From: Lacunisphaera limnophila
GTDB lineage: Bacteria > Verrucomicrobiota > Verrucomicrobiia > Opitutales > Opitutaceae
Direction: 5' to 3'
Assembly (NCBI RefSeq): GCF_001746835.1
Contig: NZ_CP016094.1
Coordinates: 3,735,501 to 3,799,500 of the forward strand
DNA: 64,000 nucleotides
Each line of letters begins with the position of its first letter. Within the stretch, counting starts at the first letter, position 1. Below the pieces are notes generated by a model. The model had not been told where the DNA came from and made no database searches. It was given only the letters and a program-made list of their open reading frames with translations. The position numbers were made by a program, and so were the translations under genes. Shown here piece by piece: positions 31,193-61,133 of this stretch.

Positions 31193-31212
31193 GGCGGTAA
31201 ACACGCACGATA

Positions 31213-31227
31213 GTGTTATGAGGACAC
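31213..31227. promoter_or_regulatory. Candidate NrtR operator 1
   Basis: GTGT-N7-ACAC palindrome, preceded by TA, 20 bp before the nrtR start. NrtR sites are known to be palindromes with a GT-N7-AC core, and this matches. A second copy with the same spacing lies 32 bp further upstream. Confidence 0.6.
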
Positions 31228-31244
31228 CAAGCGTCAAGCTGATA

Positions 31245-31259
31245 GTGTTCGTAGCACAC
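31245..31259. promoter_or_regulatory. Candidate NrtR operator 2
   Basis: GTGT-N7-ACAC with the same TAGTGTT left half as operator 1, offset by 32 bp (about three helical turns), upstream of nrtR. The pair suggests cooperative autoregulation. Confidence 0.6.
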
Positions 31260-31531: not shown

Positions 31532-32773
31532 CTATCCTCCTGCCTTCCCAGTGCTTGAGGCAAAGCCGAGCGGTTTCCACTCCGTAATGAAGTGCTTCGA
31601 CACTACTTCGACGGCGGTAGCGAAAACGTCTGCCAGTTCCTTCTTATCTTTCGCGGCAATGGTCATGGCGGTGCGATGGATCTCCCGGATGTGCGCACCG
31701 GTGAGACCACGGTCATAGCAAAGCTTGTGGAGACGATGATCGATCGTCTTGGCGCCAAACCAACGGTCAACCATCACAGAGATTTCAGGGTTCGTCGGTT
31801 TATTGAATTCGTACTTTCGGTTAAACCGAACCGGGCGGTTTTTAATAGCAGCATCTAACAACTCCAAGTGATTGGTCGTGGCGATTACAACAATCGGATC
31901 TTCGCGCTCCGTGATCCCGTTCATAAATTGAAGAAAATCGGCAAAGTAGGATGGACGTCCATTAATGCGATCCTCCCCAAATGCGTCGATGTCCTCCAAA
32001 CCGATAATTGCAGGGGCCAAATACATTCGGATAACCCTGTCGACCTCATCAAAAGGAACGCAGCCGACGAGGTAGGCTGCGGAATAGCCCGCCGCTATAG
32101 CCTCATTAGCGGCCGCCGCGCAGACAAGGGATTTCCCGGTCCCAGGATCGCCATGACAGATGATCCCATTGTTTTGGCCTAGCTGGAGCTGAAGAACCGT
32201 ATTTTCCCAGAGTTCGTCACGGCGTGTGGTATTGGTCACGAAGTCCTTGAAAGTAGATTTAGGACGGGCGCAGATATTAATATCCAAAGAATTACCACGC
32301 ATGAGTATCTGGACTAGCTTACCACGGAGCGGATTGTTGTGGCGCAAGGCTTTGGTCAGAAGCTCGACAAGATCAGAGATGTCGTGGTTGCCACTCGAAA
32401 CAGTGATGGAAGTTGATCCCATACCATCAAGTACCTCGAATCGAATGATCCGATCATCGATGATCGCGACCACTACCCCCGTCTTGATGATTGGAGTCTT
32501 GATGCCGTGCTCATATTCGTAGTCGCTTCTCTCCTTAATTTGCAATTCGTCCCAATCAGCCGCTTTAGCCTGAAGGATTTTTTCGAACAGATATGAGGCC
32601 ATTCGCAGCTCATAATCACTGCGAAATGACCATGTGTGAGACTTGATCTGCTTCGGGGCTGCCTTAACCGCGGGCAAACCATGGGTTAGTAGGAAGCACA
32701 CATCCTCACGAAGCTGCTTAATTTCCGGCGTACCATAGGTGGTATTGAGTCTTTCTAGTTCGATTTCACTCAT
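31532..32773 (-). CDS. AAA ATPase 1 of the CAATTGT-box region
   Basis: From the ATG at 32773 the product has 413 residues. The N-terminal 190 are an unassigned alpha/beta domain; the C-terminal part is a classical AAA module with Walker A CHGDPGTGKS (about 207-216), Walker B IIGLEDIDAFGED, sensor 1 IVVIATTNHLELLD and a lid with TGAHIREIHRTAM. The partner or substrate is unknown. A palindromic box is centred 21.5 bp before the start and is shared with the divergent small gene. A second AAA protein of similar build lies at 39261-40523. Confidence 0.8.
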   Translation of the reverse strand: MSEIELERLNTTYGTPEIKQLREDVCFLLTHGLPAVKAAPKQIKSHTWSFRSDYELRMASYLFEKILQAKAADWDELQIKERSDYEYEHGIKTPIIKTGVVVAIIDDRIIRFEVLDGMGSTSITVSSGNHDISDLVELLTKALRHNNPLRGKLVQILMRGNSLDINICARPKSTFKDFVTNTTRRDELWENTVLQLQLGQNNGIICHGDPGTGKSLVCAAAANEAIAAGYSAAYLVGCVPFDEVDRVIRMYLAPAIIGLEDIDAFGEDRINGRPSYFADFLQFMNGITEREDPIVVIATTNHLELLDAAIKNRPVRFNRKYEFNKPTNPEISVMVDRWFGAKTIDHRLHKLCYDRGLTGAHIREIHRTAMTIAAKDKKELADVFATAVEVVSKHFITEWKPLGFASSTGKAGG

Positions 32774-32789
32774 GATACCCCAAGTTGAG

Positions 32790-32798
32790 AACAATTGT
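32790..32798. promoter_or_regulatory. CAATTGT box A (divergent)
   Basis: AACAATTGT in the 40 bp between the divergent starts at 32773 and 32814. The symmetric core is ACAATTGT, centred 21.5 and 19.5 bp from the two start codons. Confidence 0.65.
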
Positions 32799-32813
32799 CT
32801 GACGCAGTTAGAC

Positions 32814-33050
32814 ATGAGCAAAAACGCCAAGAATAAAGCCGAGCAGGAAACGAAAACCGATTGTGAAGCTCACCTTCAGGAAGCAAATCGGTGTATTCGT
32901 AAGGCGATCACCGATATTTCCAGCGTGGTCATCAGTGAATGCGACGGCGTACAAAACCTAACGCCCTCTCGTATTACTGATCTCAGGGCCGTGATGAATA
33001 CGTTGGTTGATATCCGCGACAAGCACTTTACCGACTGGCACAAACGCTAA
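32814..33050 (+). CDS. Small hypothetical protein
   Basis: From the ATG at 32814 the product is 78 residues, highly charged and mostly helical (KAEQETKTDCEAHLQEANRC, RITDLRAVMNTLVDIRDKHF). No family is recognised. It starts 15 bp after box A and is divergent from AAA ATPase 1; there is no Shine-Dalgarno sequence between the box and the ATG. Confidence 0.6.
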   Translation: MSKNAKNKAEQETKTDCEAHLQEANRCIRKAITDISSVVISECDGVQNLTPSRITDLRAVMNTLVDIRDKHFTDWHKR

Positions 33051-33088
33051 GCCTCGTGTCCGTCCGCTAAAACAGCGAAGGCTCCAGC

Positions 33089-34141
33089 CTACTGGTATAA
33101 ACTAGGTTTATCCTCGCCGAGCAGGTCCTTCATTTCGAGGTAACCCCGTCTGATCTGCCTTTCCTTGGCGCCCTGTTGGTAAAGTCGAATCAGACTCATG
33201 TTTCCCATGAGCTCTACCTCATTGCCATGGGTCAACAGCGCTCTCAGCACGGGAGCATCGAGCTTCATGTAGCCCTTACGAGAGGTTATGGTCGCCCGGT
33301 AACAGCCAGGTAACCACTCGCAGTAGCCCCTACTCTGATCGCATTTGTCAGCATACTTTGCCGTCTCCAGCGCTACGATGGCATCGTCATCCTTTGGAAA
33401 CACCGAAATCCTCCACTTCATAACTTGGTTAACAGCAGGCAATCGAATCGCCATCTTCTTGAACACAGCTTTAACGTCGTTGTCCCATTGTAGCAACCAA
33501 TACCGGGGTATCCTCAAGTAGCCATTCTTTGTGATTTTCCTCCGGTAAGTTCCCGATAGAAACGGTTCCTTAGGAGTGACTCTTCCTTCATGTAAACTAC
33601 GGATCATTGCGTCCCTGATGCGCGTATTGCTAGGGACTAATTCCTCGGATAATGGGAATAGGATCCGATTCGGCCAACTAAGCTCAACTTCTTCCCTAGC
33701 ACCGCGGATCTCGTCCCTGACGATCATCCACAGTCTGCCGAGGTGATTTTGACCCATACCATCGGGTCCATTTCCCCAAAAGGCATCGTGTTTGGACTCT
33801 TCGATCAAAACTGCATCTCCAGAGGCCAAAAGTAATTCAGCCACTTGAGCGTGTTGCCTAGCTTTCGCTCGAAGCGCCAGATGCATAACCGTAATTTTGA
33901 TACTCTCCCAGTCGGATCGATACTTATCAGGATGTTGGCGGCCAAGCTTTGCCGCATCCCAAGCAGTAGGCGCCTTCTTGATTAGGTCCTGGTAGAACAG
34001 TTGGCTAAACTTCTGGGCCTGGTAGTAGTGTTCAACACTTGTCCAAAGCACCTCGTCTATTGATACAGCAGTAGGTGCAAAATTGGGTAGCAGCCGATAC
34101 GGGCCACGCAGCTTGGAAAAAAGTATGCGGCTAGGCTCCAT
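33089..34141 (-). CDS. NADAR-family (YbiA/DUF1768) protein with an extra C-terminal domain
   Basis: Residues 1-150 are a NADAR domain: FSKLRGPYRLLPNFAPT, SVEHYYQAQKF (Glu 37), FWGNGPDGMGQNHLGRLWM and IVRDEIRG. NADAR enzymes remove ADP-ribose from guanine in DNA or act on ADP-ribosylated small molecules. Residues 150-350 are an addition. Two stretches there, KITKNGYLRIPRYWLLQW and ITSRKGYMKLDAPVLRALL, look like paired MraZ/AbrB-type beta-barrel repeats, which would give DNA binding; that is inference. The start lies 13 bp after the sigma-factor stop, so the two are co-transcribed from box B. Confidence 0.82.
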   Translation of the reverse strand: MEPSRILFSKLRGPYRLLPNFAPTAVSIDEVLWTSVEHYYQAQKFSQLFYQDLIKKAPTAWDAAKLGRQHPDKYRSDWESIKITVMHLALRAKARQHAQVAELLLASGDAVLIEESKHDAFWGNGPDGMGQNHLGRLWMIVRDEIRGAREEVELSWPNRILFPLSEELVPSNTRIRDAMIRSLHEGRVTPKEPFLSGTYRRKITKNGYLRIPRYWLLQWDNDVKAVFKKMAIRLPAVNQVMKWRISVFPKDDDAIVALETAKYADKCDQSRGYCEWLPGCYRATITSRKGYMKLDAPVLRALLTHGNEVELMGNMSLIRLYQQGAKERQIRRGYLEMKDLLGEDKPSLYQ

Positions 34142-34154
34142 GATGGCTGCAGCA

Positions 34155-34733
34155 CTACTTCGAGGTTTTAGGAAGACGCATGAAATCGGCGTAGATGTCC
34201 AGATGGGCGGCACTCAAGAACGCCTCTACCTTCGATTCAGTCAGGCCAAACGCAGAAGCAATTTTATCAATTTTAAGACCCTGCTCGTGGAGCATCTGCA
34301 TCATTTTCCTAGTGTTTTCTGGCATCCGGGGCAAATGATCGGCCAACAACTTGGGCCAATCATTGGATTCCAGCATTCGTTTTAGCTCTGCGTCTGCGTC
34401 GAAGGATTCACCTGGGGCAAACCAACCCGTTGGAAGCTTTTCATTTTCAGCTTCAAGACCGTTTCCCTTTCCCTTCTTTGGGCGTGCTGTTTGCTGACTA
34501 GCATGCCGGCGCACCTCATCGAAAATCGCACCCCGAATGCGAGTCTGGGCATAGGTCTTGAAAGCACTGTCCTCTAGTGCGCCTCGCTTGCGTACACAGG
34601 CTATTAAGGCACATACAGAATGATCGAACAACTCCTGCCGCTTAATATCCGGAGGCAGTTTGGGAATTACCTGATCGAGAATCTCGTTAATGAGATACAC
34701 GTGGCTCTGTATGATTGTTTGGTCATCGATCAT
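34155..34733 (-). CDS. FliA/WhiG-like sigma-70 family factor
   Basis: The 192-residue protein has region 2 of the FliA class, YLINEILDQVIPKLPPDI followed by TRIRGAIFDEVRRHAS, and a C-terminal region-4 helix-turn-helix (MPENTRKMMQMLHEQGLKID, IASAFGLTESKVEAFL). No flagellar or sporulation genes are nearby, so it is an orphan factor that could direct transcription of this gene set. The palindrome of box B lies 60 bp before its start. The downstream NADAR gene forms an operon with it. Confidence 0.8.
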   Translation of the reverse strand: MIDDQTIIQSHVYLINEILDQVIPKLPPDIKRQELFDHSVCALIACVRKRGALEDSAFKTYAQTRIRGAIFDEVRRHASQQTARPKKGKGNGLEAENEKLPTGWFAPGESFDADAELKRMLESNDWPKLLADHLPRMPENTRKMMQMLHEQGLKIDKIASAFGLTESKVEAFLSAAHLDIYADFMRLPKTSK

Positions 34734-34793
34734 AGCCTTACTGCTTTGAGCCTCTTGCTGGTTTCGAATTCAGACAGTATAGGGATTAGACGT

Positions 34794-34805
34794 AAACAAT
34801 TGTTT
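34794..34805. promoter_or_regulatory. CAATTGT box B (divergent)
   Basis: Perfect 12-base palindrome AAACAATTGTTT between the sigma-factor start (34733) and the phosphoribosyltransferase-like start (34883). It is further from the starts (66.5 and 83.5 bp from the centre) than the other boxes. Confidence 0.7.
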
Positions 34806-34882
34806 AGGATTTAGGCATCGGGGAAGCGGAACTGCCTCTTTCACAAAATCACCCACCCAAGCGGCTTTCACACACCACGACC

Positions 34883-35758
34883 ATGGATCTTTGGGTAAGA
34901 CATCGACAGGCTGTAAACCTAAACCTCGCTTGGGACCAACGCGTAAACGTCTCCAGTGAAACCGAATGGAGAGCTACTGTGACGCATCCGGATATCATTT
35001 CATCGATACTGTGGCCCAGCCCTCCCCTATTCCCTATCCAATACCGCCACGCAGGCCGGAGACATCCCCATGAGATCGATTATGTGAACGATCCGGTGCG
35101 CAACCAAGAGTTTCGTAATGCCTGTCAGCGCCTTGCCGTCTCAATCGATCAGGAGCTTGGTGGAATGCGTTGCCTGGTGTACGCGCCCTTGCGAGGGGCA
35201 CTACCTATCTGGCGGGTCGTCTCACAGTTTCTTAAGCATGCCAAGTGTGACGTCTACTATCCCGTAACCTCGAGCTTCATATCCTATCCGATCAGCTTCG
35301 AGGTACAGGGAACCAAAAAGCGTCCCATTTCAGGCCGTTACGCAAACGTTCTAGAGCTACAGAGGCTCAAACCATTTCTCGGCGGCTATGATGCAATGCT
35401 CTATATCGACGAGATTGTTTCTGGAAGTATGATGCAAGGACACATCAAGGAGATGCTCCTGCTCGAGATAAACCGCCTAGTTCCTATAGTTGCTGCCGGC
35501 ATCGCAGACCGGAACGGTCGTAAATCCATTGATCGACGTTCCCAGATCACTGCCAAAGTTACTGACGGGCTTCTGAGAGCATTCTTTTGGGAGGGTTGCC
35601 CGAGCCTGATAACCGAGGATCAGAAGTATCTGCTTGGTATTCATTATGCCGACTACACCACAGGACCGAATATCGTACCGTTTCTTAACGAGAAACTAGG
35701 CCCGTATCCGGAAAGAGAAGCTTTCGAGAAAGAGGTATTCATTCAGCCAGCCCCATGA
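34883..35758 (+). CDS. Phosphoribosyltransferase-like protein
   Basis: The 291-residue product has the two main type I PRTase marks: a pyrophosphate-loop-like APLRGALPIWRVV (about 101-113) and a PRPP-loop-like AMLYIDEIVSGSMMQGH (about 171-187), where Asp-Glu and Gly-Ser take the usual places. The base specificity cannot be read. Among ADP-ribose enzymes it could recycle nicotinamide or another base with PRPP, but this is inference. Its 3' end overlaps the convergent ADP-ribosylglycohydrolase gene by 16 bp. Confidence 0.65.
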   Translation: MDLWVRHRQAVNLNLAWDQRVNVSSETEWRATVTHPDIISSILWPSPPLFPIQYRHAGRRHPHEIDYVNDPVRNQEFRNACQRLAVSIDQELGGMRCLVYAPLRGALPIWRVVSQFLKHAKCDVYYPVTSSFISYPISFEVQGTKKRPISGRYANVLELQRLKPFLGGYDAMLYIDEIVSGSMMQGHIKEMLLLEINRLVPIVAAGIADRNGRKSIDRRSQITAKVTDGLLRAFFWEGCPSLITEDQKYLLGIHYADYTTGPNIVPFLNEKLGPYPEREAFEKEVFIQPAP

Positions 35759-36726
35759 GCTAACTTCGATGCAGCATCCGCTGCGATGCGATCGGCTAAA
35801 CGATAAACTAATTCTCTACGGGCAATCGCACTCTTCCATACTGGAGGTATGGCCGACTCGCCATAGTATGCCCCGGCAAGCTGACCGTAAACAGCAGCAA
35901 CAGTGTCTGTATCTTCTCCAAAACGGATTGCTGCGATACAGCCGCTTTGGAAATCATTTGTGTGAACAAATGCCCATAGGGCTGCTTTGAGTGTATCCAC
36001 ACAATATCCAGTCCCACGGATTTTGCCTTCAGATAGGCCGAGCACCTCTCCTGATGCCAACTCTCGAATCCTCGGCTCCAGTAAGTACTCCCGCCATAGG
36101 CCTGGCGTAGGCTCGAAAATAGCGGTGCCGACAAGTTGTTCCTTTGTATACCCATGCAGAGCACCCCAGATCAATGCGCCTAGATAGGCGCAAGCGCTTA
36201 CGGCTTCCGGTGCACCATGAGTAGTTTTTGACGACTCCGCGGAATACATAATTGCCTGCTTCAAATCATGCGCGAAGTAAGCTGGCACGGGCGCCAAACG
36301 CATTATCGATCCATTCCCAGCCTTATTGGAATCCAAGGAACCGCAGTACGGTTCCCTACAGTCGCCTTCCACGAATAGCAGTATTGCCTCTCGTGTCGCG
36401 ATGCCCACGTCAAATACGCGCTTCCCACTTCCAGAGGCGCGGCAGCTGTTGTGACCAAACTTTAGCCAGCGCGCATATCGCTTCATCTGATCCAGGGGAT
36501 TGAAGCCTCCTGATAAAATCAGGCTTTCGGCGAGGCACAGGGCTAATGAAGTATCGTCTGTCCATTGACCCGGTTCCAGCGCAAATGGACCTCCCCCCAT
36601 CATAACTAGATCGTCAGGCACTTCTGGTCGTGAAGTAAACTCGAAGGTTGAACCCAAAGCATCCCCTACCGCGAGTCCGACGAGGGACCCACGTGCTCTA
36701 TCGAGGAACTCTTCGGCCATGCTCAT
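35743..36726 (-). CDS. ADP-ribosylglycohydrolase family protein 1
   Basis: The 327-residue protein has the DraG/ARH fold marks: LVGLAVGDALGSTFEF at the start, the metal motif WTDDTSLALCLAESL (about 55-69), NKAGNGSIMRLAPV, SSKTTHGAPEAV and the second metal motif FGEDTDTVAAVYGQLAGA (Glu in place of the usual Gly). Such enzymes hydrolyse ADP-ribose from proteins, nucleic acids or small molecules. No CAATTGT box lies before it, unlike most neighbours. A start at the second Met (36720) is equally possible. Confidence 0.92.
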   Translation of the reverse strand: MSMAEEFLDRARGSLVGLAVGDALGSTFEFTSRPEVPDDLVMMGGGPFALEPGQWTDDTSLALCLAESLILSGGFNPLDQMKRYARWLKFGHNSCRASGSGKRVFDVGIATREAILLFVEGDCREPYCGSLDSNKAGNGSIMRLAPVPAYFAHDLKQAIMYSAESSKTTHGAPEAVSACAYLGALIWGALHGYTKEQLVGTAIFEPTPGLWREYLLEPRIRELASGEVLGLSEGKIRGTGYCVDTLKAALWAFVHTNDFQSGCIAAIRFGEDTDTVAAVYGQLAGAYYGESAIPPVWKSAIARRELVYRLADRIAADAASKLAHGAG

Positions 36727-36831
36727 TTCATAAATACTTTAGGCTCTGCGCCTGATGGTCTGCATCACATATAGAAAGGATAGTCTTTCAATAGGACGCG
36801 GCCGATGACTAAGCCACACTCGGGACCTTCG

Positions 36832-37329
36832 TTAGTGACCCTTGGGTATTCTTGCGAAGCGTTCGTTGGCGGTTGTTGTAGCCAAGGCAACCGTTGCGGC
36901 GCTCATACTGCCTTCGATTTCTGAAATAAACGGGTTGGAGCCTGTATCCCCCAAAGAGCTGGCCACTTTGAGCCACACAAGAGCTTCAAAAGGGTCTCTC
37001 GTCTGAACATAAATGCCGGAGTATATCTTAATGAGCTCGGTTACCGCCGATCCATCTCCCCCCTCGGCTTGTGCAGCGAGCCCTGTAGCAGCCGTCCGTA
37101 TCCAAGCGACGCCCTCTGCCTCTCTATCTGAGGTTTTAGGTGATCGAAGGAGTATGTCGCCTATAGCTAATTGGGCACGAACATGGCCTTGTTCGGCCGC
37201 TTTGCGTAGCCAGCCCAACGCAGTATCGAAATTCTGGGCGACACCATGACCGGAAAGATATGAAGCCCCGAGCCTAAATTGAGCATTAGCATCACCCTGC
37301 TCAGCTTCCTTTATCCAAATTGTGATCAT
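36832..37329 (-). CDS. Sel1-repeat protein
   Basis: From the ATG at 37329 the product has 165 residues with Sel1-like repeats: AEQGDANAQFRLGASYLSG, then AAEQGHVRAQLAIGDILL, and a more degenerate third unit. Sel1 repeats form helical scaffolds for protein contacts. No signal peptide is present. Box C is centred 39.5 bp upstream. Confidence 0.8.
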   Translation of the reverse strand: MITIWIKEAEQGDANAQFRLGASYLSGHGVAQNFDTALGWLRKAAEQGHVRAQLAIGDILLRSPKTSDREAEGVAWIRTAATGLAAQAEGGDGSAVTELIKIYSGIYVQTRDPFEALVWLKVASSLGDTGSNPFISEIEGSMSAATVALATTTANERFARIPKGH

Positions 37330-37364
37330 GTACTTTGGTAATGTTGTTGGGATTATTGCCCAAG

Positions 37365-37373
37365 ACAATTGTT
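37365..37373. promoter_or_regulatory. CAATTGT box C
   Basis: ACAATTGTT upstream of the Sel1-repeat gene (minus strand), centred 39.5 bp from its ATG, a longer spacing than at boxes A, E, F and G. Confidence 0.5.
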
Positions 37374-37551
37374 CAATCATGTGATCGGCGGAACACCAAT
37401 TGTAGCCCCGTCGTCTACCATCCTCTCTGCGTATTTTTTGAAGAACCGTCAGTTGCTGGTCGACTAGAGATCTGGAGGATTTCCTACCTAAGGGCTTTGG
37501 TTCGGAAGCTATACCGGAAGGCTCACGTATGTTCGTGTCGCCTTCTGCCTC

Positions 37552-38223
37552 CTAATCGGTCTCGAAAGTAAACAACCAGGTGCCAGTAGCCACAACCTTA
37601 TCCTCCCGATTCGATTCGAAAAAGGGGAGCCTCGCACCGTTTCCCCAATAGAGTCCTCTGGTATCGGTCGATAGCACCGTATGTTCAACTGCTTTAAGTC
37701 GGCCCAGTTGAAGCCCACTCCTTACTGCGATTTCCGTGGCCCTTGCCCTACTCTCTTTCAACGCCTGCTCGTATGCACTCATGATAGCAGTTGCACTGTC
37801 GCGCAACCCATAGACGACCGTTTCCTGATAAGGAGTAGGAACGACAGCACCACCACTTTGGAAAAGAATCCCCAACAGTCGCTTCACATGACTGAGATCG
37901 CCAGTGCAGTAGAGCACCATACTTCTCGTAAGAGCATAGTCCTGCTCACAGCCAATCCGCACCGAGTACCGATCAGCTACTTCGATCTCCTCTTTCACCA
38001 GTTGCGTAGCGCAGGTTGCGAGCACTGCCTTTAGCTGTGACTCCATTTCCTTGATTCTGCTGTCCAGGATCGCGCTCGCCTCGGATATGCTCCGGTTCTT
38101 TTCTTGGAGCATAAAATAGATCAATGCCGTATCGGCATTTGTGGTAACGTAGCCGGTACTGGAAACCTTGATTTCCGCTAGTGCTGTTGAAATGCAAAGA
38201 ATCAAAGGAAGGATAAATTTCAT
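37552..38223 (-). CDS. SIMPL (DUF541) domain protein, exported
   Basis: The 223-residue product has a signal peptide (MKFILPLILCISTALA) followed directly by the SIMPL pattern IKVSSTGYVTTNADTALIYF, a middle with RLLGILFQSGG, and a C-terminal ALKESRARATEIAVRSGL as in DUF541 proteins. These periplasmic or membrane-linked proteins have no settled biochemical role and often appear in stress responses. It is divergent from the DUF1810 gene and shares box D. Confidence 0.85.
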   Translation of the reverse strand: MKFILPLILCISTALAEIKVSSTGYVTTNADTALIYFMLQEKNRSISEASAILDSRIKEMESQLKAVLATCATQLVKEEIEVADRYSVRIGCEQDYALTRSMVLYCTGDLSHVKRLLGILFQSGGAVVPTPYQETVVYGLRDSATAIMSAYEQALKESRARATEIAVRSGLQLGRLKAVEHTVLSTDTRGLYWGNGARLPFFESNREDKVVATGTWLFTFETD

Positions 38224-38245
38224 GATGGTATGCATGTCTAACCCC

Positions 38246-38255
38246 AAACAATTGT
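38246..38255. promoter_or_regulatory. CAATTGT box D (divergent)
   Basis: AAACAATTGT between the SIMPL gene (start 38223) and the DUF1810 gene (start 38265). The right edge is only 9 bp from the plus-strand ATG, leaving no room for a normal ribosome binding site. Confidence 0.65.
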
Positions 38256-38264
38256 CCGCGCTTC

Positions 38265-38720
38265 ATGTATATTAACCCAGAAGAAGACCCCTTTGACCTA
38301 ACACGTTTCTTGCTGGCTCAAGCGGACACCTATGCACAGGTCCTCGCGGAGCTTAAGGCAGGGCGAAAACGTACGCACTGGATCTGGTATATCTTTCCTC
38401 AGTATGCGGGCCTGGGATCGAGCGAGAATTCCGTTCTCTATGCCATCAAGTCATTGGAAGAGGCCCGAGCATACCTCCTTCACCCCGTCTTGGGACATCG
38501 CTTGAATATATGCTCAACCGCTCTGCTCCAGCACAGCGGCTTGTCTGCCAAGGATATCATGGGGAGCCCAGACGATCAAAAGCTCCAATCCTGCATGACT
38601 CTATATTCGAGAACGGAAGGAACCAACGGGATCTTCAATCAGGTGTTGGCGAAATACTACGCCGGCAGGCCCGACACCAAGACCCTGACATTATTGGGAC
38701 TACCTGACTCAGATGCCTGA
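38265..38720 (+). CDS. DUF1810 family protein
   Basis: The 151-residue protein matches DUF1810: DLTRFLLAQADTYAQVLAEL, the hallmark GRKRTHWIWYIFPQYAGLG, AIKSLEEARAYLLHPVLGHR and SPDDQKLQSCMTLYSR. The biochemical function is not established; its neighbours here link it to ADP-ribose metabolism, as an inference. The ATG follows box D at 9 bp. The 200 bp after it hold no recognisable gene. Confidence 0.88.
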   Translation: MYINPEEDPFDLTRFLLAQADTYAQVLAELKAGRKRTHWIWYIFPQYAGLGSSENSVLYAIKSLEEARAYLLHPVLGHRLNICSTALLQHSGLSAKDIMGSPDDQKLQSCMTLYSRTEGTNGIFNQVLAKYYAGRPDTKTLTLLGLPDSDA

Positions 38721-38921
38721 CTGAGGGCCTGAAAATAAAGCGAGACCACTTGCTAGATGCCTTTTACCGCGAGCAACGGCAAGAGTACTTTAAAATCTGT
38801 TTCGCCGAACACTACTCGGTACCATCGTGAGAGAGAGCCATCCTAGATTATGGTAATTTCTCAAACTCCAACGAGGAAACAGAGAAGGTTAGCCTGTTAA
38901 GATTCTAATCCCCTGAAACCG

Positions 38922-39167
38922 CTAGTCGCCGAAAGTCCACTTACTGCAATTGAAATAATGGCCTTCAGGCTCGTGGCCACATTCGTTGCATGAGAACAGG
39001 GACCTCACAGCAAAACGATGGTGACTTTCCCGTGCCCTCGGCCTGATAGAATTTGAGAATGCGTTGTTCGCTCCACCTCTGGTCTCATCCCACTTGCAAT
39101 AGGTCATCCAGCAACGATTGTGAGGCGGTGGGGTTACACTGCCGCAGTTGGGGCACATCATTTTCAT
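38922..39167 (-). CDS. Small zinc-ribbon protein
   Basis: The 81-residue product has two cysteine pairs that would bind zinc, MMCPNCGSVTPPPHNRC near the start and FSCNECGHEP near residue 58, with Trp-rich surroundings (CWMTYCKWDE). No family is recognised and there is no box before it. It lies between DUF1810 and AAA ATPase 2 and may be real on the evidence of the paired CxxC motifs. Confidence 0.5.
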   Translation of the reverse strand: MKMMCPNCGSVTPPPHNRCWMTYCKWDETRGGANNAFSNSIRPRARESHHRFAVRSLFSCNECGHEPEGHYFNCSKWTFGD

Positions 39168-39260
39168 ATTATACCTTGGATCTGACTAGCCGCTGAAGGA
39201 TCGGATTATTTGCCTCTTGAAGCTTATGCAGCAACAGCGGAGTTAAATTTGAAAGGGATG

Positions 39261-40523
39261 CTAAGCCCTATTCTGAAAGCCAATCGCCCTTCGCGAGGTA
39301 CGGACATTTCCAGCAGCAGGCGCGTTATAGATCTCCGCAAGGGTATAAGCCCGCTTCTCAGGCAGTACTTTGCGAAGTGAAGCCGCAAGCAGCGCCGATC
39401 GATCTGGATCAAGCCTCGTAAACTCCCACTGCCCACGGAGACGACCAGGCCGTAGGAGTGCCGGATCGATCCTATCCAAGTCTGTATTGAGCGTTATGAT
39501 GATCTTGGGGGTCAAGTAGTCGGCGAGGAAGCCACTAACCAGATTCAGCAGATTCGAAACCTGGCAATAGTTGTCAGCCGCCCTCGGCAAGACAAGAGCT
39601 TCGCCATCCTCGATGACCAGGACCAGAATTTTGCCAGAATGCATCCGGCCAGCATTGCGCTGAAACTCGATCAAGTGGTGCGCCGTCACATGGGTGAATT
39701 GGTCTGGAGGAACAACGTAGAATACATGCGTCCGATGCAGCTCTACCATCCAATGCCTGATCAGGGACGTTTTACCCCCTCCTGGTTCACCCCTCAAGAC
39801 TAGCACCCCACTCAAGCTCTCTTGCTTCAGAAATTGCATACCTTCGCGATGGAATGATGCCATAAATTCTGCCCCATAATGTAGAGCGAGTTTCCGTGAT
39901 GTCATTCTGGCCTTGAGAGTAACCTCCACCTGCTCCTCGGCGACCCCATGCGGACCACCAATCGCAATTAAAGAGAATCGCGGCTTTACCGGTGCCGTCT
40001 TCTTCCAAAAGCGCCTCAACTTCCGCCGCCAGATCTTCGATTGCTCAATAGACTTGGTGTAAAATCGGAGCCATTTGTCGCCCACCCACAATATGGATGA
40101 CTCATCCAGCCTTAGAATTAGTGATTCGATCGACTCCCCCTTGGCATAGTTACACTCAGCCGTGACGGATCGGATGATCTGAGAGCCAAACTCTTTGACC
40201 AGAGCTTTGTGTCGGATTTCTGCGTTTACCAGATGCATGTGGTAATTCTTTCCATTAAGAAAGTTCCGCACTGGCATTTCGAAAAAGCCTATGTTTGTCG
40301 GAGCGATGGCATTGGTGGTGGCCAGGCTAAAATCATCTCGCTGGCCGAGTGCGTAACTCGATTCCGGCTGGTCTTCATAGCTCTCGTATTCCGAATCCTG
40401 CCGCATCTGATCAGGCGGATCATCACGGTGCTCTATCTTCGGTATCCCATTCTCGCGCAGAACACCGATTCGGTCAGTATTGGGCGTGCGGTTGGGCAGA
40501 TCTTTATCGGTGTCGTAGCTCAT
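39261..40523 (-). CDS. AAA ATPase 2 of the CAATTGT-box region
   Basis: From the ATG at 40523 the product has 420 residues. The first 235 are charged with no known domain; the AAA module follows with Walker A LRGEPGGGKTSLIRHW (about 243-258), Walker B VLVIEDGEAL, sensor 1 IIITLNTDLDRIDPAL and the arginine-rich RPGRLRGQWEF. The overall size and layout parallel AAA ATPase 1, with a divergent N-terminal part. Box E is centred 24.5 bp before the start and is shared with the membrane-protein gene. Confidence 0.8.
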   Translation of the reverse strand: MSYDTDKDLPNRTPNTDRIGVLRENGIPKIEHRDDPPDQMRQDSEYESYEDQPESSYALGQRDDFSLATTNAIAPTNIGFFEMPVRNFLNGKNYHMHLVNAEIRHKALVKEFGSQIIRSVTAECNYAKGESIESLILRLDESSILWVGDKWLRFYTKSIEQSKIWRRKLRRFWKKTAPVKPRFSLIAIGGPHGVAEEQVEVTLKARMTSRKLALHYGAEFMASFHREGMQFLKQESLSGVLVLRGEPGGGKTSLIRHWMVELHRTHVFYVVPPDQFTHVTAHHLIEFQRNAGRMHSGKILVLVIEDGEALVLPRAADNYCQVSNLLNLVSGFLADYLTPKIIITLNTDLDRIDPALLRPGRLRGQWEFTRLDPDRSALLAASLRKVLPEKRAYTLAEIYNAPAAGNVRTSRRAIGFQNRA

Positions 40524-40541
40524 GTGTGTAAAGACAGCCTC

Positions 40542-40552
40542 AAACAATTGTT
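40542..40552. promoter_or_regulatory. CAATTGT box E (divergent)
   Basis: AAACAATTGTT in the 44 bp between the divergent starts at 40523 and 40568. The core centre is 24.5 and 20.5 bp from them. Confidence 0.7.
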
Positions 40553-40567
40553 CCGGCATTCGTAACG

Positions 40568-41095
40568 ATGAACTTAATTGCCTTCTTCTTCCGCCGCTTA
40601 TGGTCCAGCGGTATCCTTGATCTTGTCGTTCCGGTTGTGGTGGGGTTTATTTTCGGCGCCGCCTCGATGTACCCTGTGTGGCAGCGAGCAGAGCTCTTGC
40701 GTGTGGCCGCCCAGCCAAAGCCTTACGAAATGCCCTTAAGTGCTGCAGTGCGCACTTGGTGGCTACACGTTTCGGACTCCAAGCCACCCGGGGCGATAGA
40801 ATCCGTATTCGTCTTTGCCAGAGGAGTAGATGTTATGCGGAGTCCAGCTCCTGATTCTGAGGCATTCACCATGCACGTCATCGACGAAGTATTAATCCGT
40901 TCTGGTACTGCCGATTCTCGCGAAGAACCCCAATCGGTCACCATTAAATGCCATGAACTAAAGGATACGTCCAAGGTGAAACTATTCCGCTTTCGTCGTA
41001 TCGAAAAAGGGGTTGCCAGTTTCTCCGAGCTGGCTGCCGACGGTAGCGAGTCACAGCCGATAACTCTGTCCGATGCCTCTATGGCTTTTGACTAA
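40568..41095 (+). CDS. Hypothetical single-pass membrane protein
   Basis: The 175-residue protein has a hydrophobic N-terminal helix (GILDLVVPVVVGFIFGAASM, about 15-34) and a soluble beta-rich domain after it (VRTWWLHVSDSKPPG, FTMHVIDEVLIRSGTADSRE). It is unrecognised. It starts 15 bp after box E and leads the short operon with the next gene and the ADP-ribosylglycohydrolase 2 gene. Confidence 0.65.
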   Translation: MNLIAFFFRRLWSSGILDLVVPVVVGFIFGAASMYPVWQRAELLRVAAQPKPYEMPLSAAVRTWWLHVSDSKPPGAIESVFVFARGVDVMRSPAPDSEAFTMHVIDEVLIRSGTADSREEPQSVTIKCHELKDTSKVKLFRFRRIEKGVASFSELAADGSESQPITLSDASMAFD

Positions 41096-41142
41096 ACTTA
41101 CCTAAGCTGCAGCGCGTTTCATTTCTAAGTTTCCTGAACACA

Positions 41143-41625
41143 ATGACTCTTGAACAGGCCCAGTCTATTATTGAGGCAGTCGAAGCTCGGCTCCATTCGG
41201 GCTCATTTGTTGTCGCCCACGTTTTCGAACGAGATGACCGCAGCATCCATGTGGCCCTGACTTTGAGGCTGAAAGAGAAATGCGAGCGCATCAGGGTATG
41301 GAAGTCTCGTGCCTTCCTTCAAGCGTTCAAGAATGCAGCCCATGGCTTCGATCCTATTCAAAGCCGGCGGCGATCGGGCAAAGACGGTATCTTTCTGCTG
41401 GACCGCGACTATCGCCCAAAGAATGAGATGATGCGGAAGATGTTCACGGCCTTTCTTGATCGCGAAGGCTCTGGTGCAGATGAAATCGCAAAGCATCTTG
41501 GCGTACCCCTGCAGACATTAAAGCCTGTCCGCCTTGTTGCGCATCATGGAAGGCTTCTGGGTGTTTTGAGTCATCAACCCGATGCTGATTGGCTCGTGCT
41601 CGTCGACTGGGACGACACAGAGTGA
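41143..41625 (+). CDS. Hypothetical protein
   Basis: The 160-residue soluble protein has no signal peptide. It shows an N-terminal helix and beta hairpin (SIIEAVEARLHSGSFVVAHV) and a C-terminal helix-turn-helix-like segment (GADEIAKHLGVPLQTLKPVR) followed by a basic and a beta-rich end. The family is unknown. It lies 33 bp before the ADP-ribosylglycohydrolase 2 gene and 47 bp after the membrane protein gene, so it is probably co-transcribed from box E. Confidence 0.6.
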   Translation: MTLEQAQSIIEAVEARLHSGSFVVAHVFERDDRSIHVALTLRLKEKCERIRVWKSRAFLQAFKNAAHGFDPIQSRRRSGKDGIFLLDRDYRPKNEMMRKMFTAFLDREGSGADEIAKHLGVPLQTLKPVRLVAHHGRLLGVLSHQPDADWLVLVDWDDTE

Positions 41626-41658
41626 TGCAGTAGACATAAATCATCGACTACCCTACCC

Positions 41659-42765
41659 ATGCTCTTCCAATTGGCCATAGGCGACGCATACGGCGCCGGG
41701 TTTGAATACGCATCGAAGGACTTTGTTGCCCAGCACAATAATCTTGAGAGGTACATTTCACATCCCAAGCACCGCCAGCTACCTGGCACCTACACCGACG
41801 ATACTCAGATGGCGCTAGCCATAGCTGAGCTACTGATCGAGAAAAGCCCTTGGACCAAGGAAGTGATCGCCCAAAAGTTTGTCGACGTCTTCAAGCGGGA
41901 TCCTCGCAAGGGCTATTCCCAGCGTTTCTACTGGTTCCTTCGGGAGGTAAAAGATGGCTCTGAGTTCCTCGCTCGCATCGACCCGCGCAGCACAAAATCA
42001 GGTGCAGCCATGCGGGCACCACCGCTGGGCTTGCTCAAAAGCGAAGCAGAGGTTCTTGCAAAGGCCGAGTTCCAGGCCCGGTTGACGCATGACACCCCGG
42101 AAGGCGTTGCCTCAGCCCAAGCCGCGGCTCTGACGGCACACTACTTCGCATATGGCCTGGGACCTGCGGAAAAGCTCGGTCGCTACCTGAGCAATCAGGT
42201 ACCCTATCGCTATGCTTGGCATAAGCCTTGGCGAGGCAAGGTCGGGCCGAGCGGACTTGAGGCTGTTCATGCTGCCGTTTACGTCCTCTCTCGCGAGTCT
42301 ACCCTGGCAGGAGTCTTACGCGAGACAGTGAACCTAACTGGCGATGTGGATACGGTGGCGTCTATCGCCCTAGCAGCTGCGTCTACAACCCGTGATTTCC
42401 TAAGGGACATCCCTGAGGCGCTAGCTACTGCTCTGGAGCACTCTACCTTTGGCGCGAACCACCTCCAGAAGGTAGATCGGGCCCTCTCTCAACTGCTTCC
42501 GCTTAGGGCGCAGTCCTCAGGAGAGATTACACGTCCATTTTATCGTGAGGTGATTGCCGACAAACTGCGGGTAGTTGAGAACATTGAACACGGGCAGAGG
42601 ATCATTTCCGAATGCCCCTTTTGTGACGCTGAGGACTTTAGTATCGGAGCGGGCTTCTACAAATGCTTCTCCTGTGGAAAAGTCGGTAATGCTATCACGT
42701 TTCTGGTCGAGGTGATGAAAATGCCCCAAGACCAGGCGATGGATTTCTATAAGAAATACATGTAA
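41659..42765 (+). CDS. ADP-ribosylglycohydrolase 2 fused to a DnaG-type zinc ribbon
   Basis: The 368-residue protein has an ARH domain: LAIGDAYGAGFEYASKD, metal motif YTDDTQMALAIAELL (about 45-59), LTHDTPEGVASAQAAAL and TGDVDTVASIALAAAS. The last 60 residues form a second domain: CPFCDAEDFSIGAGFYKCFS with CGKVGNAITFLVEVM, the CxxC-x13-CxxC layout of the CHC2 zinc-binding domain of DnaG primases. The fusion suggests action on nucleic acid, such as ADP-ribosylated DNA or RNA. It is the third gene of the box E operon. Confidence 0.85.
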   Translation: MLFQLAIGDAYGAGFEYASKDFVAQHNNLERYISHPKHRQLPGTYTDDTQMALAIAELLIEKSPWTKEVIAQKFVDVFKRDPRKGYSQRFYWFLREVKDGSEFLARIDPRSTKSGAAMRAPPLGLLKSEAEVLAKAEFQARLTHDTPEGVASAQAAALTAHYFAYGLGPAEKLGRYLSNQVPYRYAWHKPWRGKVGPSGLEAVHAAVYVLSRESTLAGVLRETVNLTGDVDTVASIALAAASTTRDFLRDIPEALATALEHSTFGANHLQKVDRALSQLLPLRAQSSGEITRPFYREVIADKLRVVENIEHGQRIISECPFCDAEDFSIGAGFYKCFSCGKVGNAITFLVEVMKMPQDQAMDFYKKYM

Positions 42766-42848
42766 TGCAGAGCAGTTCGTTACGTACCCTTCCAGATGAA
42801 ATCAGTCGAAGCAGAGATTCCGACTTACCCCTAAGAGCCTAAGATAGT

Positions 42849-43019
42849 ATGCCGAGCTATCGCATATATTGCTTTGTTGGGCCTGTTCATATCAAGGCGC
42901 AGCTAACTGCTTCCGTTCGACGTTGGCGCATAACCGCACCAACCGATATTGATGCTATACCCCTTCCCCGAGACAAACGGGCGGGGCAACTGACTGCTAC
43001 GTACATCATTGACTGTTAG
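42849..43019 (+). CDS. Short ORF, possible small protein
   Basis: A 56-residue frame (MPSYRIYCFVGPVHIKAQL ... TATYIIDC) fills the gap between ADP-ribosylglycohydrolase 2 and the next zinc-ribbon gene, ending 12 bp before it. Its composition is protein-like with alternating beta strands. No family is recognised. It would be translationally linked to the gene that follows. Confidence 0.4.
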   Translation: MPSYRIYCFVGPVHIKAQLTASVRRWRITAPTDIDAIPLPRDKRAGQLTATYIIDC

Positions 43020-43031
43020 CAAAATCTATAT

Positions 43032-43364
43032 GTGGCGGACCTGCGATCTGAACACTATTGCTGTGCCAACGGTGAAGAGGTCATAGCGGCAGGTGAAATA
43101 TCTTTTGAGAAACGGAAAGGTGCTTGGTCTGTGTGCGAAATCAACAATCGGTCGACCGGATTCTGCCCCGAACCTGATTCATGGGCTGCGGCGAATGAGG
43201 CACTTAGCGCCATCGGCATCCCCTACCCTGACGGATTCACCGAGGCCTATATGTTCAGACGTTGCCCCAAATGTTCGGCCATCAACCTAGTCAAAGAGTC
43301 GTGGTTTGTTTGTGCTTGTGGCGCGGACCTACCCTCTACTTGGAATCTCGCACCCGAGATTTAG
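43032..43364 (+). CDS. Conserved-looking zinc-ribbon protein
   Basis: From a GTG at 43032 the product has 110 residues. It starts with a beta-rich domain (HYCCANGEEVIAAGEISF, STGFCPEPDSWAAANEAL) and ends in a zinc ribbon (RRCPKCSAINLVKESWFVCA, then CGADLPSTWN). The central phrase and the ribbon look like a family I have seen in actinobacterial and other genomes, but no function is known to me. It follows the short ORF in probable operon. Confidence 0.65.
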   Translation: MADLRSEHYCCANGEEVIAAGEISFEKRKGAWSVCEINNRSTGFCPEPDSWAAANEALSAIGIPYPDGFTEAYMFRRCPKCSAINLVKESWFVCACGADLPSTWNLAPEI

Positions 43365-43380
43365 CTTCTGCGTGGAGCGG

Positions 43381-43394
43381 CAAACAATTGTTTG
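43381..43394. promoter_or_regulatory. CAATTGT box F
   Basis: The longest copy, a perfect 14-base palindrome CAAACAATTGTTTG. It ends 12 bp before the ATG at 43407 and begins 16 bp after the stop of the upstream gene. Confidence 0.75.
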
Positions 43395-43406
43395 CTGCTT
43401 TGTGGT

Positions 43407-44018
43407 ATGAACGAAGGCAAGCCTGTTAGCCGCAAGGCTCGCAACGAAGTGGAGCAGTTCCTCGGACTTGCTGGTTCCCAGCTTTTCTTTGCTGAAGCCG
43501 CCCTATTTGACCTGCAAGTAAGCGCGCAATCCATCCGTGAGCATACCCACGCGGAACGCATGCGCCGCAAGAAAACTATCTATTTGCTCTCCGAACTTAG
43601 AGAGGCTGCGTTCTTCGCGTGGGATCTCAATGCTGAGATCTACAAAAAGTCTTTTGAATCCAAGGAAGAGGTTCTGGCCGACATGTGCGCAAGACTGGGC
43701 TGGAATTATACAGGGCCCAGCGGATCATCCAACTCGGACCAAGATCTGGAAACCGGCGATGGTGTAGATGCGGGTGAGGTCACCATTCCACGCAGAGAAT
43801 CAATTCCCATGGCAAACGGCCCGCTGATGTCTCTGCACGAGCCTTCGGCTGGTGAAAAGCTGATTATGAAGGCCCGATACCATCTCGACCTGGCCTTGAA
43901 GGATATGCAGACGGCGCTGGATCTGGATTGTGGCGTCATGCATATCACGAACCAGGATCGAACTGAGATTGCAGCCATCATGCGACAGGTTGCAGAGACC
44001 CTACAAGCACTCAGCTGA
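43407..44018 (+). CDS. Hypothetical helical protein
   Basis: From the ATG at 43407 the product has 203 residues, mainly helical (NEVEQFLGLAGSQLFFAEAA, RKKTIYLLSELREAAFFAWD, KARYHLDLALKDMQTALDL), with an acidic linker in the middle. No motif is recognised. It is preceded by box F at 12 bp, without a Shine-Dalgarno sequence, and followed 56 bp later by a membrane-protein gene. Confidence 0.65.
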   Translation: MNEGKPVSRKARNEVEQFLGLAGSQLFFAEAALFDLQVSAQSIREHTHAERMRRKKTIYLLSELREAAFFAWDLNAEIYKKSFESKEEVLADMCARLGWNYTGPSGSSNSDQDLETGDGVDAGEVTIPRRESIPMANGPLMSLHEPSAGEKLIMKARYHLDLALKDMQTALDLDCGVMHITNQDRTEIAAIMRQVAETLQALS

Positions 44019-44074
44019 ATCAAATCTTGCTCGCCATTCTGACACGCACTGACAACCCTATCCCACAGTTACTC

Positions 44075-45238
44075 ATGGATGCTCAATTCGCCCTCTTTGA
44101 GAATGACCGGTTGAGACGGGTGATGACTCGATTTGGACTCGCGAGCGATGGTCACGTCAGACTGTGGCGATGTGCGCTGGTGTTGCCGATTGTCTTGTGG
44201 GCTCCACTGGTCTTGCTGTCTGCGGTGCAGGGCCTGTGGTGGACACAGGACCTCAAGCAGTCGTTTCTCGCCGACTTCTCGGTTCATATGCAGATGCTGG
44301 TAGCGATACCCTTCTTCCTTTTCGCCGAGGAGTTCGTGGAGCAGCGAATTGGCGAGGCCTGGCTGCAATTGCGTGACGGTGGACTGGTCAGCCCGGAATC
44401 CAGGCAGGTGTTGCTCGATGCCGCTGCCAAAGCGATGCGGGTCCGGGACTCAATCTGGCTGGACATGCTGGCCTACGCTTTAGGTCTTGCTGGAGCCTGG
44501 ATCTGGCTATGGCAGATGAAATCCGACGGAGTATCCACGTGGCATTCGGTAGTTGATGGCCCATCCGAGGGATTGAGCTTGGCAGGCTGGTGGTTGGGTC
44601 TGGTTAGCGTGCCCATCCTCAACTACTGGTATGGGAGATGGCTCGGGAAGTGGGCCATATGGAGCTATCTGCTGTGGAGCGCATCTCATACAAATCTGCG
44701 CCTTTCCGCAGCCCATCCCGACCTCTCTGGCGGGCTGAGTTTTCTAAATCGGACCCAAGGCAGTTTTGGCATGATTGTCTTCGGAATTGGCATGGTTGTC
44801 GCTACGACAGTGGGATACCTGGTCGGCGTAGCCGGGTTGGCCGCACATAGCTTTGCGGTCTGGTTCTCCATCACGGGATTCCTTACGCTGGGTCCAACCG
44901 CGTTTCTGCTTCCCCTCTTTTTCTTCTCCCGGCAGTTGGTCGAAGCAAAGACCCGCGGGTTTGTTGAATACGGAGCACTCGGCCTGGAATACACTGAGGC
45001 GTTTCGCAGCAAATGGATTACCGGCCGTGAAAAGCCAAACCCTCTTGAAGCCAGTGCCGATATCGCCGGCTTATGCGATCTAGGGCAGCATTACGAGAAC
45101 GTGCGCAACATGCGTGTCGTGCCCTTTGACTTCAACACGGCTCTCCAACTCTTTGGAGCGGCGCTTGGCCCCTTGCTTCCTGTTCTACTTAGAATCTTCG
45201 AGCTTCCTGAACCGATTAAGAAGCTGTTTGGGATCTAG
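44075..45238 (+). CDS. Polytopic membrane protein of unknown function
   Basis: From the ATG at 44075 the product has 387 residues with about six membrane helices (for example LWRCALVLPIVLWAPLVLL, MQMLVAIPFFLFAEEFVE, FGMIVFGIGMVVATTVGYLV, LGPTAFLLPLFFFSRQLVEA) and a C-terminal cytoplasmic tail. No transporter motif is seen. It may be co-transcribed with the gene before it. An upstream in-frame start at 44027 is less likely. Confidence 0.75.
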   Translation: MDAQFALFENDRLRRVMTRFGLASDGHVRLWRCALVLPIVLWAPLVLLSAVQGLWWTQDLKQSFLADFSVHMQMLVAIPFFLFAEEFVEQRIGEAWLQLRDGGLVSPESRQVLLDAAAKAMRVRDSIWLDMLAYALGLAGAWIWLWQMKSDGVSTWHSVVDGPSEGLSLAGWWLGLVSVPILNYWYGRWLGKWAIWSYLLWSASHTNLRLSAAHPDLSGGLSFLNRTQGSFGMIVFGIGMVVATTVGYLVGVAGLAAHSFAVWFSITGFLTLGPTAFLLPLFFFSRQLVEAKTRGFVEYGALGLEYTEAFRSKWITGREKPNPLEASADIAGLCDLGQHYENVRNMRVVPFDFNTALQLFGAALGPLLPVLLRIFELPEPIKKLFGI

Positions 45239-45346
45239 ACCTACATACGCTTCAGGACAAAACTGCATTCGATTCCACTAAGGCTACACAATAATTCCCG
45301 CCGTGCTTAGACCTGCCCCGTCAAACCCACATACACACATTCACCA

Positions 45347-45613
45347 ATGAGTTCAGAGAACCTTGGCCCGGGATCAACAACTTGCACTATTCATGGAGTA
45401 GACCTACCCGCGGTTACACCCGGAGTCTCAACTCACTACAAATGGACATGTGACATCTGCGGCAAAACGCTAAAGTATAGCGGATGCTGGCACTGCGGAG
45501 GAATGTCCTCCCGGCCTTGTAGTAGGTGTGGCGCTGACTGCTGCTCTGATTGTGCAGATAATGCATCTATGGGGCCTGGCATTTCGACCCGTATTTGCAG
45601 GCGTTGCGCTTAG
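45347..45613 (+). CDS. Small cysteine-rich zinc-finger protein
   Basis: The 88-residue protein contains a row of CxxC pairs (WTCDICGKTLK, SGCWHCGGMSSRPCSRCGA, DCCSDCADN, STRICRRCA), consistent with a RING/FYVE-like double zinc finger. No domain beyond this is identifiable. The 240 bp that follow, up to the next small gene, contain only box G and no convincing coding sequence. Confidence 0.65.
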   Translation: MSSENLGPGSTTCTIHGVDLPAVTPGVSTHYKWTCDICGKTLKYSGCWHCGGMSSRPCSRCGADCCSDCADNASMGPGISTRICRRCA

Positions 45614-45828
45614 AACCGACAGGAATTGGTTGTATTGCGCAATAGATTTACCGCCATTCAGCTTTGCGAAGCCCCTGCCCGACGTTTTCAGCCCGCACTG
45701 CATCAGCAGCGGCATCTTTCAGCGCAGGAAATGCGACTTCGGCGGAATGGAACCGACACCGCTCCACCGTCTGAAGCAAGTGGAACACGAGATCAATGAG
45801 CTAAGAAAGTTCGCCTGCCAGCGACGAT

Positions 45829-45841
45829 AAACAATTGTTTG
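45829..45841. promoter_or_regulatory. CAATTGT box G
   Basis: AAACAATTGTTTG, a perfect 12-base palindrome plus one base, 12 bp before the ATG at 45854. It is the last copy in the window, at the edge of the phosphonate region. Confidence 0.7.
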
Positions 45842-45853
45842 CAACCTCGTGAA

Positions 45854-45994
45854 ATGAGCGACGACAGGCCGATTAAGAGGCACATCAGTGATTGGCAACG
45901 TTGCGAATTTCTAGTCGCGATGCGTCTGATTGAAGCACCAGATGCTCCCTCGCTTACTTCTAATCTTGCTCGCGAACCCGCCTCCCGACTATAA
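45854..45994 (+). CDS. Short ORF behind box G, perhaps truncated
   Basis: A 46-residue frame (MSDDRPIKRHISDWQRCEFL, VAMRLIEAPDAPS) begins at the same spacing from box G as the 203-residue protein does from box F. Its first 30 residues show weak resemblance to the start of that protein (basic patch, then F-L-x-A and a leucine helix), so it may be the stump of a paralogue cut by an indel. It is too short to be sure. Confidence 0.4.
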   Translation: MSDDRPIKRHISDWQRCEFLVAMRLIEAPDAPSLTSNLAREPASRL

Positions 45995-51700: not shown

Positions 51701-51702
51701 GG

Positions 51703-60760: not shown

Positions 60761-61133
60761 ATTTGGAGGATGAGTGTTTTGGAGTGTTACTTGGAGCTGT
60801 GCTTGTAGGCTTGAAACAATTGATCGAAGGGGCCCATCACGGTCACTTGAGCCCAAGCGGTTTCGTGCTAAGTGAGATCGATGAACGGCATAGAAGGAAC
60901 CGGAGCAGTGCTCTCATAGGGGTGACAAAAGAAGAGTCATACCACCCCGGGCTCTCTATCTAGAGGCATGCACACTTACGCGCTCCGCGCTAAGCCATCC
61001 AAAAGCAAAGATGTACACTTCTGGTTCATCGTTTGCCTAATGCCCCGACCCAATTGTCTGCCGAACTATTCAGCAGTCACTCGATAGTGCAGCTATAGCC
61101 CGAAGGGATCCCTTACCGGCACGCAGGATAAGA
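60761..61133. other. Intergenic region upstream of the envelope operon
   Basis: About 370 bp without a credible gene between the operon start and the SDR stop. It should contain the operon promoter. Two near-matches to the CAATTGT palindrome occur (AAACAATTGA at 60814 and CCAATTGT at 61050), but both break the symmetry of ACAATTGT. Confidence 0.4.

Follow-up and report, generated by a model that had tools for sequence, protein, structure and literature searches.

Cluster A mycobacteriophages carry one repressor site, the stoperator, repeated across the element (PMC6550527, PMC9283540), whilst in E. coli pseudo-symmetric bidirectional promoters have been described (PMC12825309). Both bear comparison with a locus in a 64,000-nucleotide stretch of Lacunisphaera limnophila (NZ_CP016094.1, positions 3,735,501 to 3,799,500; hereafter the window), where the palindrome ACAATTGT recurs at the gene starts of a 15-kb ADP-ribose-related module, part of a foreign stretch of DNA. 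As with the stoperators, a single type of site recurs over one element; stoperators, however, are asymmetric, numerous across the phage genome and terminate elongation, whereas the sites in L. limnophila are symmetric and stand at gene starts only. As in the E. coli promoters, a symmetric element serves divergent genes, but those promoters consist of ordinary promoter elements, whilst here the palindromic core is invariant and symmetry is found even at sites with a gene on one side only. A literature search for AAACAATTGTTT, a 12-mer form of the palindrome, returned unrelated papers only.

The window holds eight copies of ACAATTGT against 0.59 expected, a number that none of 100 shuffles reaches. 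Seven of them span 13 kb (32.79-45.84 kb), all intergenic and adjoining gene starts, and all at the positions given by an earlier reading of this DNA made from its letters alone (hereafter the sequence-only reading). The same reading had found the palindrome nowhere else in the window, which is not wholly accurate: one further copy, at position 1323, lies within a coding region and looks like a chance occurrence. The whole genome (4,199,284 bases) contains 12 copies, 11 of them between 3,730,472 and 3,805,374 (75 kb), and all ten non-coding copies are inside one ~86-kb low-GC island; the palindrome is not equally frequent elsewhere, the lone copy outside the island (at 3,418,138) again lying inside a gene. 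The probability of finding at least seven of 12 copies inside 13 kb is ~2e-15, and that of seven out of seven being intergenic ~9e-7, given an intergenic share of 13.7% of the stretch; the runner-up among palindromic 8-mers of the cluster stretch occurs twice. With up to two mismatches to AAACAATTGTTT, a search of the window returns the seven cluster sites and one weak site at 60814, and a search of the genome 27 sites, the top four of which are cluster sites. Single half-sites show no genome-wide enrichment. The frequency, clustering and intergenic placement of the palindrome are far beyond chance.

The conserved element extends beyond the core. We predict an operator of ~24 bp with ACAATTGT as its invariant 8-bp core and half-sites close to TTGTYYGSGGCT; the consensus of the 14 half-sites of the seven operators reads TTGT(T/C)(T/C), beyond which a weaker preference for G-C-G-G-C-T extends to position 12. 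A matrix was built from the seven cluster sites only and scanned over 135 kb around the island. The three non-coding island copies outside the window score 24.9, 22.0 and 16.1, against a maximum of 14.3 in five simulated islands, whereas the copy at 1323, at 11.9, stays below this maximum, and the flanks of neither coding copy match the matrix. Operator 6 is the most symmetric site, a nearly perfect 24-bp palindrome, and the only one where an RNA hairpin would be stable; the other operators form no long hairpin. Over 47 nt (43382-43428 and 45829-45875), first codons included, operators 6 and 7 are 74% identical, which suggests a local duplication of an operator together with those codons.

The geometry at the start codons is as the sequence-only reading had described it: four of the seven sites lie between divergent genes, so that the seven face eleven starts, and five of these starts are 19.5-21.5 bp from the centre of the palindrome (19.5 bp for 32814, 43407 and 45854, 20.5 bp for 40568, 21.5 bp for 32773). 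The remaining distances are 13.5 bp (38265), 24.5 bp (40523), 39.5 bp (37329), 66.5 bp (sigma factor gene) and 83.5 bp (34883), with 16.5 or 28.5 bp for the SIMPL gene, which has two possible starts. In three of the divergent pairs the ATGs are just 40, 44 and about 41 bp apart, and the palindrome occupies the middle of the gap or a place close to it; since such gaps have no room for two ordinary promoters, the palindrome must overlap the core promoters in both directions. All module units with a divergent or isolated promoter carry a site, the open reading frames (ORFs) at 43032 and 45347 being possible exceptions, and genes deeper within apparent operons carry none.

What, then, would read these sites? 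Two proteins of the module could contact DNA, the FliA/WhiG-like sigma factor and the NADAR protein. The symmetry at one-direction sites favours a dimeric regulator over a directional promoter element. We consider it likely that the palindrome is an operator, whichever island protein binds it, and we lean towards a symmetric, island-encoded regulator that would control the whole module. Such a two-fold symmetric protein would bind the ~24-bp operator inside or beside the core promoters of almost all transcription units in the module, and binding, most simply as repression, would switch all of them together. The three further intergenic copies, which fit the extended operator, would carry this control to other island genes, and the regulon probably reaches beyond the cluster. 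The number of the sites, their placement and spacing, and their restriction to the island strongly support the earlier proposal that the cluster is one regulon held together by one operator; that a protein binds there is what we infer from them. On this interpretation, a set of unrelated-looking genes (NADAR, two ADP-ribosylglycohydrolases, DUF1810, SIMPL, Sel1, AAA ATPases and a truncated sigma factor), near a likely 7-deazapurine DNA-modification system, becomes one testable unit.

The main rival to an operator is a symmetric sigma promoter, which we regard as unlikely. Here the palindrome would be a -10 element read both ways by RNA polymerase with the module's truncated FliA-like sigma factor, transcription starting ~10 nt before the ATGs. 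The sigma gene does lie within the module, behind one palindrome; AACAAT fits four of six -10 positions on both strands, including A-11 and T-7; sigma-70-like promoters are no commoner than in shuffles; the fixed 19.5-21.5 bp to the ATG would suit a fixed transcription start; and the E. coli bidirectional promoters offer a precedent. On the other hand, the core C and G are invariant in all 14 half-sites, unlike a sigma-70 -10, no shared -35 is visible beside the palindromes, nor were -10/-35 hexamers found at the usual spacing, and the palindrome in front of the sigma gene lies 66 bp from the ATG, a distinct TATACT being closer (beginning 18 bp from the centre of operator 2, on the sigma side). 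The protein itself has 192 residues against about 270 in chromosomal FliA-like proteins, and scores 71.7 bits with the FliA/WhiG model TIGR02479 against a cut-off of 189.6, with regions 2 and 4 only being matched. As the symmetry persists where one direction only has a gene, the symmetric promoter element read by the sigma factor, which the sequence-only reading had also entertained, becomes the less likely of its two suggestions.

It is improbable, in our view, that the operator belongs to some other regulator of the island or the host, such as the HTH_17 protein at 24154 or a chromosomal factor, and not to a module protein. That helix-turn-helix protein and an Xre-type antitoxin are indeed further DNA-binding candidates on the island, which count against a binder from the module, and from three of the ten sites to the module the distance is 23-38 kb. 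A host factor, however, should have sites elsewhere, and all ten non-coding copies are confined to the island; the adjacent NrtR, moreover, has a different putative site. NrtR is a local Nudix-winged-helix regulator of nicotinamide adenine dinucleotide (NAD) genes that responds to ADP-ribose (PMC6800001); its gene (30503-31237) adjoins the module and heads a run with NadR-like, TonB-receptor-like and PnuC-like ORFs. Upstream of it we found no ACAATTGT but tandem GTGT-N7-ACAC repeats (31213-31227 and 31245-31259, 32 bp apart), which are probably NrtR's own operators, and we rejected NrtR as binder of the palindrome because this putative motif differs.

We find it very hard to believe that the palindromes are recombination or cassette-junction (attC-like) sites left by a stepwise assembly of the island. 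The module does resemble a collection of unrelated genes, and AAC-AATT-GTT resembles the R''-L'' box found in class 1 attC sites; the sites, however, stand at gene starts in both orientations, with none at 3' ends or convergent junctions, a long hairpin is confined to operator 6, and no integron integrase was recognised on reading the module ORFs, no integrase model having been searched. Chance in AT-richer intergenic DNA, or functionless spread of one promoter by duplication, is next to incredible, and is already refuted for the set as a whole: sites 6 and 7 are alike, but the remaining sites have unrelated flanks, and the shuffles come nowhere near the observed frequency, placement and extended consensus.

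Returning to an operator bound by a module protein, our preferred candidate, put forward tentatively, is the NADAR-MraZ-like protein (33089-34141), whose gene stands behind operator 2 and which would therefore be autoregulated. Its NADAR domain (PF08719) scores 96.9 bits against a cut-off of 35.1. The C-terminal half contains an internal repeat that none of 1000 shuffles reaches, and is alignable with the N-terminal hairpin of MraZ, the SpoVT/AbrB-like regulator of the division cluster (P=0.0005, 0/60 shuffles). When 388 genomes of the phylum were searched, the best match beyond the source genome was a genuine MraZ, confirmed by the MraZ model and followed by an rsmH-like ORF, with both repeats aligned (E=0.005). 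Two tandem hairpin repeats at MraZ spacing are present, with weak scores, and Foldseek places M. genitalium MraZ among the top structural matches of the predicted C-terminal fold. Several points weigh against this assignment: the C-terminal model has a mean predicted local distance difference test (pLDDT) score of 47 and every Foldseek E-value exceeds 0.04; Pfam assigns this part to no family, the MraZ (PF02381) cut-off not being reached; two unrelated stretches matched it at nearly equal E-value; where MraZ has its KGR motif, this part has KNGY/RKGY; and the DNA that MraZ binds consists of direct TGGG-type repeats, unlike this palindrome. Orthologous clusters, upstream of whose genes the palindrome might be conserved, did not turn up in congeners, in the genomes sampled from the order, the class and the phylum, or among plasmid and phage records. 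The full-length model (pLDDT 35) is uninformative, and the 388 genomes hold no close relative of the C-terminal part. As a spurious antisense ORF scored nearly as high as MraZ, the likeness is supporting and not conclusive; we take it as weak but independent evidence that this part, here fused to NADAR, may be MraZ-like. The C-terminal domain, which the sequence-only reading had named as one binder to test, gains support from this resemblance to a DNA-binding regulator, and the protein stands as a candidate.

Studied NADAR members reverse guanine ADP-ribosylation, in DarT-NADAR toxin-antitoxin systems (PMC11125620, PMC11543638). The family is common to both settings, but no DarT-like toxin was recognised in the module, and NADAR is here fused to a putative DNA-binding part, after a sigma gene. 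Perhaps the NADAR domain would let the regulator respond to ADP-ribosylated guanine or related NAD-derived molecules. A NADAR enzyme fused to an MraZ-type part could then be an ADP-ribosylation-sensing master switch that binds a new 24-bp palindrome and has the whole island module, from ADP-ribose hydrolases and AAA ATPases to its own sigma factor, under its control, an idea that we offer as a doubtful one. Should this protein be the binder, nucleic-acid ADP-ribosylation would be linked directly to transcription control, and the palindrome would provide a handle for finding the signal that induces the module.

Table. Predicted operators and genes of the module, in window coordinates; matrix scores compare with a null maximum of 14.3.
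Feature	Coordinates	Core	Strand	Setting or remarks	Matrix score
Operator 1	32783..32806	32791-32798		divergent AAA1 (-) / p78 (+), ATG-to-ATG gap 40 bp	22.0
Operator 2	34788..34811	34796-34803		divergent sigma-NADAR (-) / phosphoribosyltransferase-like (+)	27.5
Operator 3	37357..37380	37365-37372		before the Sel1 and ADP-ribosylglycohydrolase genes, in that order (-); gene on one side only	20.1
Operator 4	38240..38263	38248-38255		divergent SIMPL (-) / DUF1810 (+)	26.7
Operator 5	40536..40559	40544-40551		divergent AAA2 (-) / 175-aa membrane-like protein (+), gap 44 bp	25.3
Operator 6	43376..43399	43384-43391		one direction only; best match	30.6
Operator 7	45823..45846	45831-45838		upstream of short ORF at 45854, one direction only	21.7
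AAA1, AAA ATPase	31532..32773		-	distant likeness to IetA ATPase domain	
p78, 78-aa protein	32814..33050		+	no family	
NADAR protein	33089..34141		-	NADAR domain residues 15-146, tandem MraZ-like repeat in the C-terminal half (about 190-335); candidate regulator	
FliA/WhiG-like sigma factor, 192 aa	34155..34733		-	region 3 apparently missing	
Phosphoribosyltransferase-like protein	34883..35758		+	weak match	
ADP-ribosylglycohydrolase	35743..36726		-	family match 1.2e-75	
Sel1-repeat protein	36832..37329		-		
SIMPL-domain protein	37552..38235		-		
DUF1810 protein	38265..38720		+		
Small zinc-ribbon-like protein	38922..39167		-	weak match; probably one operon with AAA2	
AAA2, AAA ATPase	39261..40523		-	related to jumbo-phage ATPases	
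175-aa protein, membrane-like by sequence	40568..41095		+	first gene of an operon	
160-aa protein	41143..41625		+	no family	
ADP-ribosylglycohydrolase fused to DnaG-type CHC2 zinc ribbon	41659..42765		+		
203-aa protein	43407..44018		+	no family; first gene behind operator 6	
403-aa protein, membrane-like by sequence	44027..45238		+	no family	
46-aa ORF	45854..45994		+	follows operator 7; similar to the 43407 gene in leader and N-terminus	

The two ADP-ribosylglycohydrolases, NADAR and the weakly matched phosphoribosyltransferase-like protein point to a module that may handle ADP-ribose adducts or NAD-derived molecules. The AAA ATPases appear distantly similar to IetA and to ATPases of huge phages: half of AAA2 aligns at 38% identity with a protein encoded by an uncultured phage of 735 kb, and there are further AAA2 matches in jumbo phages of Pseudomonas. 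Judging by this gene content, a role in defence or repair on the island is conceivable.

The searches for relatives of the module covered its genes in several combinations. The best homologues of AAA1, sought in 236 genomes of the class and by a profile scan of the species genome collection, have no homologous cluster beside them; at two distant ones there is, in addition, no repeated motif nearby. Neither NADAR in 177 genomes of the order, nor AAA2 in 21 genomes of the genus, nor the sigma factor, NADAR C-terminus and phosphoribosyltransferase in the 388 genomes of the phylum led to a cluster. Plasmids, phages and viral contigs, queried with differing sets drawn from AAA1, AAA2, the sigma factor, the phosphoribosyltransferase and the C-terminus, likewise yielded no relative of the module; the plasmid matches were FliA-type sigma factors and weak AAA matches, and otherwise there were only distant huge-phage ATPases that do not share the palindrome. 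Across the family, AAACAATTGTTT occurs in other genomes 0-2 times each, in unrelated places and close to the reversed control.

The three island copies outside the window lie in two further stretches, L013 and L014. The one at genome position 3730472 (L013 10473) is a perfect 26-bp palindrome, AAAACCTGAACAATTGTTCAGGTTTT, ~76 bp upstream of an AAA_25 ATPase gene; it fits the operator matrix, and could alternatively be a terminator. The other two, at genome position 3804740 (L014 5241) and at L014 5868, are near short ORFs, including one for a 32-residue cysteine/glycine-rich peptide at about L014 6135, and one of the two copies, a perfect 22-bp palindrome, could likewise be a terminator. A single-mismatch site, AGACCCAGACAATTGACTGATGCT, at genome position 3800168 (L014 669) scores 19.0, above the null, but is inside an ORF.

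As for the island itself, the GC content drops from ~65% to 50-58% across most of 3,719,000-3,806,000, although between 3,737,000 and 3,754,000 it is higher. One end adjoins a tRNA-Glu gene, and at the opposite end lies an ORF read as tyrosine-recombinase-like; as Pfam gave no support to the latter, and a second copy of the tRNA end was looked for and not found, these borders are putative. Within the island, to which the NrtR gene also belongs, DndB-like and TGT-like genes stand beside ORFs reading like queuosine-pathway genes (L013 12869-15253; window about 1-24157), a set likely to be a Dpd-type 7-deazapurine DNA-modification system. Beyond the module, at 50543-54403 of the window, further ORFs read like phosphonate biosynthesis (phosphoenolpyruvate mutase, phosphonopyruvate decarboxylase and a transaminase).

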